In this document: in pieces, positions 40,841 to 47,042 of the stretch
How positions within the stretch are numbered: the stretch's first letter is position 1
Layout of the letters: each line of letters begins with the position of its first letter
From: Acidobacteriota bacterium
Lineage (GTDB): Bacteria > Acidobacteriota > Thermoanaerobaculia > Gp7-AA8
Assembly (NCBI GenBank): GCA_021325515.1
Contig: JAJPHC010000050.1
Span: forward strand, 1-64,000
DNA length: 64,000 nucleotides
Reading direction: 5' to 3'
The notes under the pieces: generated by a model
Database searches by the model: none
Seen by the model: the letters and a program-made list of their open reading frames with translations, nothing else
Told to the model about the DNA's origin: nothing
Program-made: the position numbers and the translations under genes

Positions 40841-43756
40841 GTGATATCTGCCATCATCGCAGCAACGCTCTCCTTTGCAGCAGTTGTCACACCGACGGAT
40901 CTTCAGTGGCGCATGATCGGCCCGTTCCGCGGGGGCCGCGCCCTCGCGGTGAGCGGCGTGCCGGGCCAGCCGGAGCGCTTCTACTTCGGCAGCGTCAACG
41001 GCGGCGTCTGGGAAACGAATGACGCGGGCCGCACGTGGCAGCCGGTCTTCGACTCGCAGCCGATCGGTTCCATCGGTGCGCTCGCGGTGTCGGAATCCGA
41101 TCCGAACCTGATCTACGCCGGAAGCGGCGAGGCCGACATGCGGTCCGACATCTCGCAGGGCAACGGCGTCTACAAGTCCGCAGACGGCGGCAGGACGTGG
41201 TCTCACATCGGTCTCGACGACTCGCAGCAGATCGGACGCATCGTGATCGACCCTTCGAATCCCGATCGCGTGTTCGTCGCCGCACTCGGGCACCCATACG
41301 CTGCGAACCAGGAGCGCGGCCTGTTTCGCTCACTCGACGGCGGGAAGACCTGGCAACGAGTCCTGAGCCGCAACGAAGATGACACGGGCGCGATCGACGT
41401 CGCGTTCGAGCCTGGAAATCCGCGCGTGCTCTATGCGGCGTTGTGGCGCACACGGCGCACACCATGGAGCGTCTATCCGCCATCGAACGGTCCGGGTGGT
41501 GGCCTCTTCAAGTCGACCGACGGCGGCGATCACTGGACCGAGCTCACGGGACTCCCGAAGAATCCCGGGCGGATCGGCATCGCGGTCGCGCCTTCACGGC
41601 CGAGCCGCGTCTACGCGATCGTCGATGCGCCGGATGCAGGCGGCCTGTATCGCTCCGACGACGCCGGCGCGACCTGGACGCTCACCGGCAAGGATGAACG
41701 GATCTGGAGCCGCGGCTGGTACTTCGGCGGCATCACCGTCGAGCCGAAGAACGCGGACGTCGTCTACTCATGCAACGTCAATCTCTATCGCTCGGACGAC
41801 GCGGGAAAGACATGGATCGTCGCGAAAGGCGCGCCGGGAGGCGACGACTATCACCAGCTCTGGATCGATCCCTCCAACCCGCAGCGGCGCATCCTCGGCG
41901 TCGATCAGGGCGCGGTCGTCTCAACCAACGGCGGCACCACGTGGAGCTCCTGGTACAACCAGCCGACGGGGCAGTTCTATCACGTCAGTACCGACAATCG
42001 ATTCCCCTACTTCGTCTACGGCGCGCAACAGGATTCCGGCGCAGCAGGAGTGCCGAGCCGCACGAGCACAGTCGACGGGATCAGCATCACGAGCTTCCGC
42101 GAAATCACGGCGGGCGGCGAGAGCGACAACATCGCACCGGATCCGAATGACCCCGACATCCTCTACGGCGGCCGCGTTTCGAAGCTCGATCTGCGGACGA
42201 TGCAGACGCGCGACATCGATCCGACACTCGCACACTTCGACATCGATCGCCGCACGTGGACGCTGCCTCTCGTTTTCTCGCGGCGTAATCCGAAAGTCCT
42301 CTACTTCGCGAATCAGCGCATGTTCCGCACCGAAGACGGCGGCGAGCACTGGAGCGTCATCAGCGAAGATCTGACGCGCGAGAATCCCGGCACACCGGCG
42401 AATCTCGATCCCGCAACCGCCGCGCTGAAAGCTGGCACCGGCCCGCGCCTCGGCGTGATCTACGCGATCGCGCCGTCGCGAGTCGCAGAGCACGACCTCT
42501 GGGCCGGAACCGATGATGGATTGATCTGGCGCACGCGCGACGAGGGAGCGCACTGGACGAACATCACGCCTCCCTCGCTCACGCCATGGTCGAAGATCGG
42601 CATCATCGAGACCTCGCACTTCGATGCGGAGACGGCGTACGCCGCCGTCGATCGCCATCGCCTCGACGATTTCAAACCGTACGTCTACCGCACGCACGAC
42701 GGCGGCAGGAGCTGGCAACTCGTCGCAAACGGCCTGCAGATCACGGTGAACGTCGTTCGCGAAGATCCGGTTCGCAAGGGATTGCTCTACGCCGGCACCG
42801 AGCGCGGCGTCGCCGTCTCGTTCGATGACGGCGAGCATTGGGAGCCGCTGCAACTGAATCTTCCCGTCACGTCCGTGCGCGACATCGAAGTGCACGGCGA
42901 CGATCTCGTGATCGCCACGCATGGGCGCGCGTTCTGGATCCTCGACAACGTCACGCCTCTTCGCCAGGAGGTCCGCTCGAAGCCTTTCCTCTTCAAACCG
43001 GCAACCGCAGTGCGATTCCGCGCGGCCGGCTTCACCGGCACGCCGATGCCGAAGGATGAGGCGCTGGCCTCGAATCCGCCCGCCGGCGCTGCGATCGACT
43101 ACGTGATCGATGCCGCGAAGCTCGTGACGCTCGACATCTTCGACGACCATGGCCAGCTCGTTCGCCGCTACAGCAGCGCCGAGACTCCGCCCGCGCCGAA
43201 GCAGGAGACGCTGACCACGGCGCCCGAATGGTTCGATCACCAGACGCCGCTGGCCGCAACTCCCGGGCTTCACCGCTTCTACTGGCGGTTACACTATCCG
43301 GCATCCAACTCCAGGGAGCCGTACTCGCGAGGTGTGTGGGCACCACCCGGCCACTACAAGCTCGTGCTGACGGTTGACGGAAACGCGATGACGGAATCAC
43401 TGACAGTCGTGGCCGACCCGCGGATCGCGCCCTACGACTACGCCGCGCAGTTCACTCTGGCGCGCGAGGTCGAGCAGGCGCGCGCGCAGATCGCCGCGGC
43501 GCGGACCGAGCTCGCAGACCTTGCGAAGACGAATGCGCGGGCCGCGGCGCTGGTCGATGCGGCGCCGGGCGGTGCATGGTGGCTGCCTCCGTCGTCGACG
43601 CGTTCTCTGCGCTATCTCGATCAGGCCCTGCAGAAGCTGCTGAGCGCCGTCGATGACGCCGATGCTCCTCCTTCCGCGGATGCAATGAAAAGTTGGGCCA
43701 AGCTCGAGCCGGCAGTCGAAGACGCACTTCGCGCGTGGAAGGAACTGAAACGATGA
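40841..43756 (+). CDS. secreted Asp-box (BNR/sortilin-like) beta-propeller protein
   Basis: A 971-residue exported protein from a GTG start with GAGGTG upstream. At least eleven Asp boxes (pattern S/T-x-D-x-G-x-T-W) are visible, for example TNDAGRTW, SADGGRTW, SLDGGKTW and THDGGRSW, spread over about residues 60-660, which makes one or two seven- to ten-bladed propellers of the sortilin/glycosidase type. A helical C-terminal part (about 860-965) follows. Such proteins are annotated as glycosyl hydrolases, but Asp boxes lie on the propeller surface and do not show enzymatic function. It overlaps the MFS gene (ATGA). Confidence 0.88.
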   Translation: MISAIIAATLSFAAVVTPTDLQWRMIGPFRGGRALAVSGVPGQPERFYFGSVNGGVWETNDAGRTWQPVFDSQPIGSIGALAVSESDPNLIYAGSGEADMRSDISQGNGVYKSADGGRTWSHIGLDDSQQIGRIVIDPSNPDRVFVAALGHPYAANQERGLFRSLDGGKTWQRVLSRNEDDTGAIDVAFEPGNPRVLYAALWRTRRTPWSVYPPSNGPGGGLFKSTDGGDHWTELTGLPKNPGRIGIAVAPSRPSRVYAIVDAPDAGGLYRSDDAGATWTLTGKDERIWSRGWYFGGITVEPKNADVVYSCNVNLYRSDDAGKTWIVAKGAPGGDDYHQLWIDPSNPQRRILGVDQGAVVSTNGGTTWSSWYNQPTGQFYHVSTDNRFPYFVYGAQQDSGAAGVPSRTSTVDGISITSFREITAGGESDNIAPDPNDPDILYGGRVSKLDLRTMQTRDIDPTLAHFDIDRRTWTLPLVFSRRNPKVLYFANQRMFRTEDGGEHWSVISEDLTRENPGTPANLDPATAALKAGTGPRLGVIYAIAPSRVAEHDLWAGTDDGLIWRTRDEGAHWTNITPPSLTPWSKIGIIETSHFDAETAYAAVDRHRLDDFKPYVYRTHDGGRSWQLVANGLQITVNVVREDPVRKGLLYAGTERGVAVSFDDGEHWEPLQLNLPVTSVRDIEVHGDDLVIATHGRAFWILDNVTPLRQEVRSKPFLFKPATAVRFRAAGFTGTPMPKDEALASNPPAGAAIDYVIDAAKLVTLDIFDDHGQLVRRYSSAETPPAPKQETLTTAPEWFDHQTPLAATPGLHRFYWRLHYPASNSREPYSRGVWAPPGHYKLVLTVDGNAMTESLTVVADPRIAPYDYAAQFTLAREVEQARAQIAAARTELADLAKTNARAAALVDAAPGGAWWLPPSSTRSLRYLDQALQKLLSAVDDADAPPSADAMKSWAKLEPAVEDALRAWKELKR

Positions 43757-45093
43757 ACGACTATCCCATCCGGCGCATCATCTTCGCCTCGGGCCTCGGC
43801 ACGATGATCGAGTGGTACGACTTCTACATCTTCGGAAGTCTGGCCGTCGTCATGTCGAAGATGATGTTCCCGGCCAGCACGAACGCGGCGGCCATGATCA
43901 AGACGTGGGCCGTCTTTGCGACCGGCTTCATCGTGCGGCCCTTCGGTGCGATCGTGTTCGGACGCGTCGGGGATCTCGTCGGAAGGAAATACGCGTTTCT
44001 CGTCACGCTGACGATCATGGGGCTTTCCACGTTCCTGATCGGGACACTGCCGACGTACGCGACGATCGGCGTCCTCGCGCCGATCCTCCTCCTTGCGCTG
44101 CGTCTGCTGCAGGGGCTTGCGCTCGGCGGTGAGTACGGCGGCGCCGCGGTGTACGTCGCGGAGCATGTGCCGGACAACAAGCGCGGCTATTACACGAGCT
44201 TCATCCAGATCACGGCGACGCTCGGCCTCTTCGTCTCGCTCGGCGTCGTGCTCGCGGTGAAGAAGTCGATGTCCGAGGCGGCGTTCAACCAGTGGGGATG
44301 GCGCGTGCCGTTTCTGCTGTCGCTGATTCTCGTCGCGATCTCGTTCTACATCCGCTCGCAGATGAAGGAGTCGCCGCTCTTCACAGCGATCAAGTCGCAG
44401 GGCAGGAGCTCGCTCGCACCGCTGCGCGAGAGCTTCGGCAACTGGGCCAATTTCAAAATCGTGCTCCTCGTACTGCTGGGTGCAACGGCTGGTCAGGGTG
44501 TTGTCTGGTACACGGGGCAGTTCTACGCGCTCTCCTTCCTGCAGACTACGATGAAGATCGACCTCACGACGGCCAGCATCATCGTCGCGGCCGCGCTCCT
44601 GCTCGGGATGCCCTTCTTCGTCGTCTTCGGCGCGCTGTCCGATCGCATCGGGCGGCTGAAGATCATGATGGCCGGCAACCTCGTCGCCGCGCTCACCTAC
44701 ATCCCGATCTATCACCTCATGAAGTCGTACGGCGACCCGAAGCATCCGAATGTTCCGATGCTGGTCCTGCTGGTCTTCGTCCAGGTGCTCTACGTCACGA
44801 TGGTCTACGGCCCGATCGCGGCATTTCTCATCGAAGCGTTCCCGGCGCGCATCCGCTACACGTCATTCTCGCTTCCCTACCATCTCGGCAACGGCTGGTT
44901 CGGCGGGACGCTGCCGCTGATCGCCGGCCTCATGGTCGAACGGACGGGAAATATCTACTCGGGACTCTACTGGTCGATCGGCGTTGCGCTGATGACCTTC
45001 ATCGTCGGCTCGGTCGCTCTCAGCGAGAGCCATCGCACCCGAATCTGGGACGAGGCGCAGGAGGCAGTTCCGATCCCCGTTCGCAGTGAATAG
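43753..45093 (+). CDS. MFS transporter, metabolite:H+ symporter type
   Basis: A 446-residue 12-helix transporter of the ProP/ShiA/KgtP family (metabolite:H+ symporters). It has the family start IEWYDFYIFGSLAVVMSKMM and motif A GDLVGRKYAF between helices 2 and 3, and in the middle a LGGEYGGAAVYVAEHVPDN motif. Substrates in this family include organic acids, betaine and shikimate; the substrate here is unknown. The ATG at 43753 overlaps the stop of the Asp-box gene by 4 nt, so the two are cotranscribed. Confidence 0.9.
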   Translation: MNDYPIRRIIFASGLGTMIEWYDFYIFGSLAVVMSKMMFPASTNAAAMIKTWAVFATGFIVRPFGAIVFGRVGDLVGRKYAFLVTLTIMGLSTFLIGTLPTYATIGVLAPILLLALRLLQGLALGGEYGGAAVYVAEHVPDNKRGYYTSFIQITATLGLFVSLGVVLAVKKSMSEAAFNQWGWRVPFLLSLILVAISFYIRSQMKESPLFTAIKSQGRSSLAPLRESFGNWANFKIVLLVLLGATAGQGVVWYTGQFYALSFLQTTMKIDLTTASIIVAAALLLGMPFFVVFGALSDRIGRLKIMMAGNLVAALTYIPIYHLMKSYGDPKHPNVPMLVLLVFVQVLYVTMVYGPIAAFLIEAFPARIRYTSFSLPYHLGNGWFGGTLPLIAGLMVERTGNIYSGLYWSIGVALMTFIVGSVALSESHRTRIWDEAQEAVPIPVRSE

Positions 45094-45123: not shown

Positions 45124-46170
45124 ATGAAGGAAAAGCGTGAGATCTATCGCTTCCTCCACGTCACACCACGCCGCATCTTCGAACAGCTCGACCAGTACGT
45201 CATCGGTCAGAAGCACGCCAAAGAAGTCCTGGCCATCGCGGCGTACAACCATCTCAAGCGCATCGAGTACCTGAAATTCGGCGGCGAAGTCTCCATTCGC
45301 AAGTCGAACATCCTGATGATGGGGCCCTCCGGCTGCGGAAAGACGTACCTTGCGCGCACGCTGGCCCGGATCCTCGACGTGCCGTTCGCCTACAACGATG
45401 CGACCGCATTCACCGAGGCGGGGTATTACGGCGAAGACGTCGAGGTGGCGATCGGACGGCTGCTGTACGCGACGAATCAGAACGTCAGCTCGGCGGAGAA
45501 CGGCATCGTCTTCATCGACGAGATCGACAAGATCGCGCGGCGCTCCGGCGGCGCACGCACCGGCGCCGGTGCGCGCGACATCGGCGGAGAAGGAGTGCAG
45601 CAGGCGCTCCTCAAGATTCTCGAAGGCGAGAAGATCTTCGTACCGCTCAATGTTACGGCGCATTGGAACAAGTACGACTACGTCGAGATCGACATCTCGA
45701 ACATCCTCTTCATCTGTGCCGGCTCGTTCTCGGATATGAACGAGCAGCCGGATGGGAATCCGATCGGCTTCTTCAACGAAGGAACGCAGGGACCGCACGA
45801 GGTCTCGACCGAAGATCTGACGCGCTACGGATTCCTGCCCGAGCTACTCGGGAGACTGCCGGTGCGTGTCCAGCTCGATGCGCTGACGGCCAACGATCTC
45901 GTGACGATTCTCACGCAGCCGCGGGAAGCGATGGTCCCCGAGTACCAGCGCCTCTGCGCGCTCGATCAGATTCAGCTCGACTTCTCGCAGGAGGCACTGC
46001 TCGAGATCGCGAATGCGGCGCTGCGGCAGAAGCTGGGGGCGCGTGCGCTGCGTGCGATTCTGGAGAAGGTGCTGCATCCCATTCTGTTCGTGGCGCCGGA
46101 ACGCGCCGGCGAGCGGATCGTCATCGAACCTCACGATGTCCATCGGGCGCTCAGCGCGGTGGTCCAGTAA
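45124..46170 (+). CDS. ClpX-like AAA+ ATPase lacking the zinc domain
   Basis: A 348-residue ClpX homologue that starts at the AAA+ module. Walker A is [17 protein letters not shown], Walker [11 protein letters not shown], and the region with PELLGRLPV and [10 protein letters not shown] is kept. Three differences from ClpX: the N-terminal zinc-binding domain is absent; the pore loop GYVG reads GYYG ([10 protein letters not shown]); and the RKH loop region is replaced (TAHWNKYDY). The IGF loop that docks ClpP is present as NPIGFF. It may be a ClpP partner for special substrates or act alone. A TATACT -10-like box lies at 45103-45108 and GAGG precedes the ATG. Confidence 0.9.
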
Positions 46171-46181
46171 ACTTGCGCACC

Positions 46182-47042
46182 GTGCAATCGATCGGCATCT
46201 CTGCCAAGCACTCATCGCCCGAGGCGCTGGCGTTTGCGGCGCAGGTGGGGAACGATCTGCGCAGGCGGGGACTGCGGATCTGCTACGACGAGAAGACGGC
46301 CGGCGCGCTCGGCGACCTGCATCCCTGTTTTTCGAAGGCGGCCATTGGTCAACACGTTGACCTCCTGGTGACATTCGGCGGCGACGGGACGCTGCTCGCC
46401 ATCGCCCGACATGCACCGGAAAACGTCCCCGTCCTCGGCGTCAACATGGGAACCCTCGGATTTCTCACCGAGATTCGGGTCGAGGAGTTCCCCGGCGTCC
46501 TCGATCGTGTGCTGAACGGCGACTTCCGCCTGGAGCCGCGCGTCACGTTCGACGTCAGCGTCAACGGGCCGGGGCGCGACGATCGCACCTTCCGCGTACT
46601 GAACGATGCCGCGATCAACAAGAGCGCGCTCGCGCGCATCATCGAGATCAAGCTCAACGTGTCCGGACTTTTCGTGACGACGTTCCGCGCAGACGGCCTC
46701 GTCGTCGGCACACCGACGGGCTCGACGGCGTACAACCTGTCAGCCGGCGGCCCGATCATCTATCCGACGATGGAGGCGGTGGTCATCACGCCGATCTGTC
46801 CGCACATGCTGACGAACCGGCCAATCGTCCTCCCCGACACGCTCGACGTCGAGATCAGCATCGAGAGCCGCAGCGTCTCGCAGGAGATCTACCTCACCCT
46901 CGACGGCCAGGAAGGATTTCCGATCAGCGACGACGATCACGTCTGCGTCCGCAAGTCGCAGCACCACGTGATGATGGTCCAATCCCCCGACAAGAACTAC
47001 TTCGACGTCCTCCGCACCAAACTCAAATGGGGCGAAACCTGA
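46182..47042 (+). CDS. nadK: NAD kinase
   Basis: Phosphorylates NAD to NADP. It has 286 residues from the GTG at 46182; a TTG at 46173 is also possible and no Shine-Dalgarno decides. Family motifs: FGGDGTLLAIAR with the catalytic Asp, the glycine-rich VNMGTLGFL, and the later GTPTGSTAYNLSAGGPII for nucleotide binding. The upstream part of the open frame overlaps the ClpX-like gene and is not part of the protein. The next feature is the palindromic element, 4 nt after the stop. Confidence 0.93.
   Translation: MQSIGISAKHSSPEALAFAAQVGNDLRRRGLRICYDEKTAGALGDLHPCFSKAAIGQHVDLLVTFGGDGTLLAIARHAPENVPVLGVNMGTLGFLTEIRVEEFPGVLDRVLNGDFRLEPRVTFDVSVNGPGRDDRTFRVLNDAAINKSALARIIEIKLNVSGLFVTTFRADGLVVGTPTGSTAYNLSAGGPIIYPTMEAVVITPICPHMLTNRPIVLPDTLDVEISIESRSVSQEIYLTLDGQEGFPISDDDHVCVRKSQHHVMMVQSPDKNYFDVLRTKLKWGET

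Follow-up and report, generated by a model that had tools for sequence, protein, structure and literature searches.

A gene for a ClpX-like unfoldase that lacks the zinc domain and has nadK as a neighbour raises the question of whether it is simply the ClpX of its lineage, or an additional unfoldase which delivers a different set of proteins to ClpP, as an earlier note on this DNA had proposed. The features considered here, most of them within the 64,000-nucleotide stretch of DNA that was analysed (the window), are collected in Table 1. Motif counts in the text use E. coli ClpX numbering and compare the 12 intact orthologues with 46 other ClpX rows of the alignment.

Table 1. Features of the ClpX paralogue, its neighbours and the canonical clpX locus. 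Residue numbers are those of the paralogue; positions refer to the window unless a locus is named.
Feature	Position	Strand	Basis
ClpX paralogue without zinc domain, 348 aa	45124..46170	+	ORF with ATG start; NCBIfam ClpX models; predicted fold
Short N-terminus, 14 aa, replacing the ~60-aa zinc domain and linker of canonical ClpX	45124..45165	+	Alignment to own and E. coli ClpX; conserved in orthologues
Walker A region, residues 63-74	45310..45345	+	Alignment
Pore-1 loop GYYG, residues 100-103	45421..45432	+	Invariant among 12 intact orthologues
Walker B VFIDEI, residues 129-134	45508..45525	+	Alignment
Pore-2 loop, altered, 3 aa longer, residues 141-155	45544..45588	+	Alignment
T-A-H-W at the RKH loop position, residues 178-181	45655..45666	+	AHW/SHW in 12/12 orthologues
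Shortened IGF loop region with PIGFF, residues 207-228	45742..45807	+	Alignment lengths; partly low model confidence
nadK (NAD kinase), start TTG 46173 or GTG 46182	46173..47042	+	Pfam NAD_kinase; synteny; junction sequence
MFS transporter, upstream of the paralogue	43693..45093	+	Pfam Sugar_tr/MFS_1
clpP, canonical locus	L002: 4347-4934		
clpX, canonical locus, followed by lon	L002: 5042-6292		

The second, canonical clpX with clpP that the earlier note had advised looking for was found on contig 51, in the order tig-clpP-clpX-lon. Its product (G000:C51) carries both CxxC pairs together with GYVG, RKH and MGF, and is 64.9% identical to E. coli ClpX (b0438); the corresponding values for the headless protein are 42.0% against this ClpX of its own genome and 43.8% against that of E. 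coli. Since a canonical zinc-domain ClpX is present, the window gene is a paralogue, as the note had supposed, and the proposal that it is the only ClpX of its clade is rejected. The housekeeping role is covered by the canonical protein.

The absence of the N-terminal adaptor-binding domain, also claimed in the note, is genuine. A scan of the 5.38-Mb genome for PF06689, the zinc domain of ClpX, gave a single hit, which belongs to the canonical protein and not to the paralogue. All orthologues of the paralogue share an MKEKR or MREKR start. Upstream of this start the reading frame meets a stop after 10 open codons in the window and at once in one relative (L098), so the missing domain is real and not an annotation error; a mis-called start concealing a zinc domain is ruled out by the scan, the conserved start and the closed frame together.

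What remains of the protein is recognizably ClpX. It matches NCBIfam NF003745 (ClpX) with 390 bits, above the cut-off of 359, and TIGR00382 with 349.8 bits, below the cut-off of 370.75. The AAA+ core is complete in the 12 intact orthologues, with Walker A, Walker B, sensor 1, the R307 finger and R370 of sensor 2. An AlphaFold2 model (mean pLDDT 80, pTM 0.80) finds its best PDB matches in ClpX chains of ClpXP complexes, with TM-scores of up to 0.82; model confidence is low at four functional loops, residues 100-103, 141-153, 178-182 and 208-223. The paralogue is a real, conserved and family-restricted variant of the ClpX-type unfoldase. The same genome encodes a third ClpX/HslU-like AAA+ protein, also of 348 aa, whose gene immediately precedes an ftsY-like gene (L011:5151-6197, that is G000:C50:96150-97196); it reads AEEHQGYGKAV at the pore-1 position, has no IGF, is about 32% identical to ClpX and scores 136 and 100 bits, far below the cut-offs of the ClpX models.

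In E. coli ClpXP the substrate is touched by the pore-1 loop (Tyr153/Val154), the pore-2 loop (Val202) and the RKH loops, and the RKH loops alter specificity (PMC7112951). The paralogue possesses neither GYVG nor RKH in any of the 12 intact orthologues. Positions 150-155 read EAGYYG in all 12, including the GYYG that the note had stated for the window protein, whereas the other ClpX rows have EAGYVG (43/46) or EAGYIG (3/46); the aromatic tyrosine of pore-1 is thus retained. The note's replacement of the RKH loop by another sequence, T-A-H-W in the window, proved equally general: positions 228-230 are AHW in 10 orthologues and SHW in two, against RKH in 41 of the 46 other rows. Strict conservation of the altered loops across orthologues is what one would expect if the choice of substrate had changed. 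Another reading makes the paralogue a redundant back-up, taking over the same clients as canonical ClpX under stress. There is a precedent in Myxococcus xanthus, where ClpX2 and ClpX3 are described as partly interchangeable and normal growth at high temperature depends on ClpX3, its deletion giving weaker growth there (PMC11423568). Here, however, the protein departs from canonical ClpX in each of the three substrate loops and in the adaptor domain, and identity to the genome's own ClpX is only 42%, so that we regard a back-up as very improbable.

Whether the substrates would be passed to ClpP turns on the IGF loop. In E. coli, Ile268, Phe270 and Val274 pack into the ClpP clefts, and changes in the length of the loop lower the affinity of ClpX for ClpP (PMC7112951). 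Positions 268-270 of the paralogue are IGF in 10 of 12 orthologues, AGF in one and VGF in one, which makes (I/V)GF 11/12 and GF 12/12. The segment equivalent to E. coli 249-306 measures 43-44 aa in the paralogues versus 51-58 aa in other ClpX; the loop itself is some 12 aa shorter than in canonical ClpX, its flanks are variable, and in the alignment no residue of the region matches Val274. A GFF form does occur in other ClpX, as the VGFF loop of the Campylobacter coli protein illustrates. The claim that the docking tripeptide is kept therefore holds for 10 of the 12 orthologues, within a loop that falls some 12 aa short of the usual length, and with isoleucine replaced by alanine or valine in the other two. 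Because the loop is short and the isoleucine not strictly conserved, docking on ClpP appears plausible rather than firm. The broader claim, that the paralogue feeds other proteins to ClpP, is supported only in part: its substrate loops are different and fixed, while its IGF loop is short and its isoleucine variable.

As to the peptidase, a Pfam search points to a single true ClpP in the genome. A second, dedicated ClpP was considered and rejected, the only other match being weak (23 bits over 76 positions, in a 333-aa frame). HslV was likewise rejected as a partner. The conserved C-terminal tail of HslU, which activates HslV, is not found in the paralogue: the HslU of this genome ends LSRYVL, and the ends of the paralogues vary. 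An HslV partner is unlikely without this tail. Alignment to the genome's own HslU also revealed no I-domain insertion in the paralogue.

An IGF loop that is so much shorter, is flanked by variable sequence and lets its isoleucine give way to alanine or valine, next to a pore and ATPase core that are nearly invariant, would also be in keeping with a ClpX-type remodeller which works alone, without ClpP, disassembling or activating particular complexes and possibly tied to NADP metabolism through nadK, to which its gene is tightly and conservedly spaced. On the other side stands the retention of GF in 12/12 and IGF in 10/12 orthologues inside a loop that is otherwise variable; because GF is invariant there, docking would seem still to be under selection. 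We consider the stand-alone remodeller possible, yet doubtful.

The neighbours are an MFS transporter and nadK, not clpP, just as the note had it (Pfam). In the window nadK starts 2-11 bp past the stop codon of the paralogue, and it lies downstream on the same strand in the 12 intact loci and also in a truncated one (G016). The gap is usually within ~30 bp, reaching ~100 bp in two loci. The upstream MFS gene is not conserved, several relatives carrying a divergent asparagine-synthase-like gene in its place. Further upstream in the window (40841-43756) is a 971-aa protein in which beta-propeller repeats of the DDGG/SxDGGxTW type (BNR-like) are numerous. One might go further and suggest a family-specific unfoldase freed from both adaptors and ClpP, dedicated to remodelling NAD kinase or an NADP-linked enzyme encoded adjacent to it; this we think improbable.

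The paralogue is present in 13 of the 18 genomes of the family, intact in 12 and truncated in one; the eleven other intact orthologues share 83-89% identity with the protein of the window. It was found in none of the class's 131 other genomes, and among 396 sampled genomes of the phylum it occurs in this family only. Other weak matches in the phylum sample resemble canonical ClpX in the length of their open frames (400-432 aa) and are 45-50% identical. None rose above threshold in 398 Pseudomonadota and 294 Planctomycetota genomes, samples that contain no positive control. The relatives listed by a contig scan, whose patterns included a general Walker B motif, all have 42-48% identity, and most are canonical or Lachnospiraceae ClpX. 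Another genome of the phylum (G181) has two different ClpX proteins, L124 and L128, encoded by open frames of 400-415 aa; the latter belongs with L122 and L123 to a clade that stands apart on a long stem and has an IGF region of 51 aa.

Within the family the gene has been lost at least once. In G017, a congener of two carriers, the asparagine-synthase-like gene lies directly upstream of nadK and the paralogue is absent, a clean loss; genus g4 likewise has nadK without the paralogue. The gene is therefore dispensable and, being absent or broken in some family members, has a conditional role. The truncated copy (G016:C436, L147) ends after the IGF loop with SIGITDH and a stop just before nadK, through deletion or an assembly artefact. 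Such losses might be taken to mean that the paralogue is a slowly decaying or marginal extra copy, kept in some species and of no particular importance. We hold this to be unlikely: the active-site and pore residues are invariant, 12 copies are intact, the dN/dS of ~0.13 denotes purifying selection, and the paralogue is better conserved within the family than its neighbour nadK (65-71% identity to the nadK of the window). Over 55 species pairs its mean identity is 85.1% (median dN 0.104, dS 0.82), against 94.5% (0.043 and 0.73) for canonical ClpX in the same comparison. The paralogue thus changes faster than canonical ClpX yet is constrained.

The paralogues make up a single clade in a maximum-likelihood tree, on a stem of 2.48 changes per column, versus 2.07 for HslU. 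The topology test speaks against a recent duplication of the family's ClpX (p-AU 0.015 for grouping the two), but it does not reject a grouping with the ClpX of the class (p 0.19) or HslU (p 0.38). With so long a stem, the tree does not separate an old duplication from a transfer. A phage or plasmid origin was considered and set aside: the full-length phage and plasmid matches listed reach at most ~47% identity, like ordinary ClpX, with one further phage record in the 60-80% band lying outside that listing. A search of viral contigs with the family alignment brought up no relative.

Taken as a whole, we give somewhat better than an even chance to an ATP-driven ring unfoldase that handles different substrates and most likely docks on ClpP. 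The protein would form a ring-shaped hexamer and unfold proteins using ATP. Lacking the adaptor-binding zinc domain, it would pick its substrates directly through an altered entrance, in which a tryptophan-containing AHW loop takes the place of RKH, and would grip them with a bulkier Tyr-Tyr pore-1. As entrance and grip are changed and the zinc domain is gone, the usual ssrA-tagged and adaptor-delivered clients would presumably be ignored, and a small, different set handled instead. It would most likely dock, through its short IGF loop and perhaps more weakly than canonical ClpX, on the only ClpP of the genome, and is probably expressed together with nadK. The intact ATPase and ring motifs, the fixed loops, purifying selection, the predicted fold and the canonical ClpX alongside argue for this account; the short IGF region with no match to Val274, the one AGF orthologue and the absence or breakage of the gene in some members argue against it.

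Divergent ClpX paralogues are natural experiments in substrate choice and in the minimum length of an IGF loop for docking on ClpP. The present one offers a clean comparison pair, being a headless ClpX with fixed GYYG and AHW that is intact in 12 species and accompanied, in the genome of the window, by a canonical ClpX and only one ClpP. Its link to nadK hints at where a substrate might be sought.

With canonical ClpX, both that of E. coli and that of its own genome, the paralogue shares the AAA+ core, Walker A and B, the sensors, the arginine finger, an insertion of the size of the RKH loop and an IGF loop; it differs in having no zinc domain, in GYYG and AHW, in a pore-2 loop longer by 3 aa, in an IGF loop shorter by about 12 aa, and in an identity of 42-44%. 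Like HslU it has no zinc domain, and the two are 41% identical over shared positions. Unlike HslU it has neither the I-domain insertion nor the C-terminal tail, and it carries a ClpX-type loop at the RKH position as well as the IGF loop.

An extra headless ClpX lacking RKH is already known from M. xanthus. ClpX3 (MXAN_2743), as presented in the relevant part of PMC11423568, has no N-domain and no RKH, is 43.5% identical to E. coli ClpX (43.8% here), is encoded away from clpP, coexists with a canonical ClpX in tig-clpP-clpX and can be deleted. It is the closest described counterpart, sharing with our protein the missing N-domain and RKH, the similar identity and its status as an addition to a canonical tig-clpP-clpX; this comparison is by description and not by sequence, and a link to nadK is not mentioned for ClpX3 in that part of the paper. 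Several Lachnospiraceae loci, among them L013, L016, L017, L019, L024, L036, L045, L051 and L063, encode a second ClpX (open frames of ~480-600 aa) with a long, lysine-rich linker after the CxxC pairs. RKH is missing from it in the rows checked, and a ClpX of canonical length was also present in 4/4 genomes checked. The resemblance to our paralogue lies in being the second ClpX of a genome and in lacking the RKH motif (for example L036 and L045); the Lachnospiraceae protein differs in keeping the CxxC pairs, in its long linker (open frames of 516-591 aa) and in a GYIG pore. As far as checked, the GYYG pore, the AHW loop, the strongly shortened IGF loop and the nadK link are apparently undescribed for the paralogues of M. 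xanthus, in the part of the account cited, and of Lachnospiraceae. Since both of these paralogues exist, a ClpX paralogue with altered entrance loops would seem to be a recurring theme.
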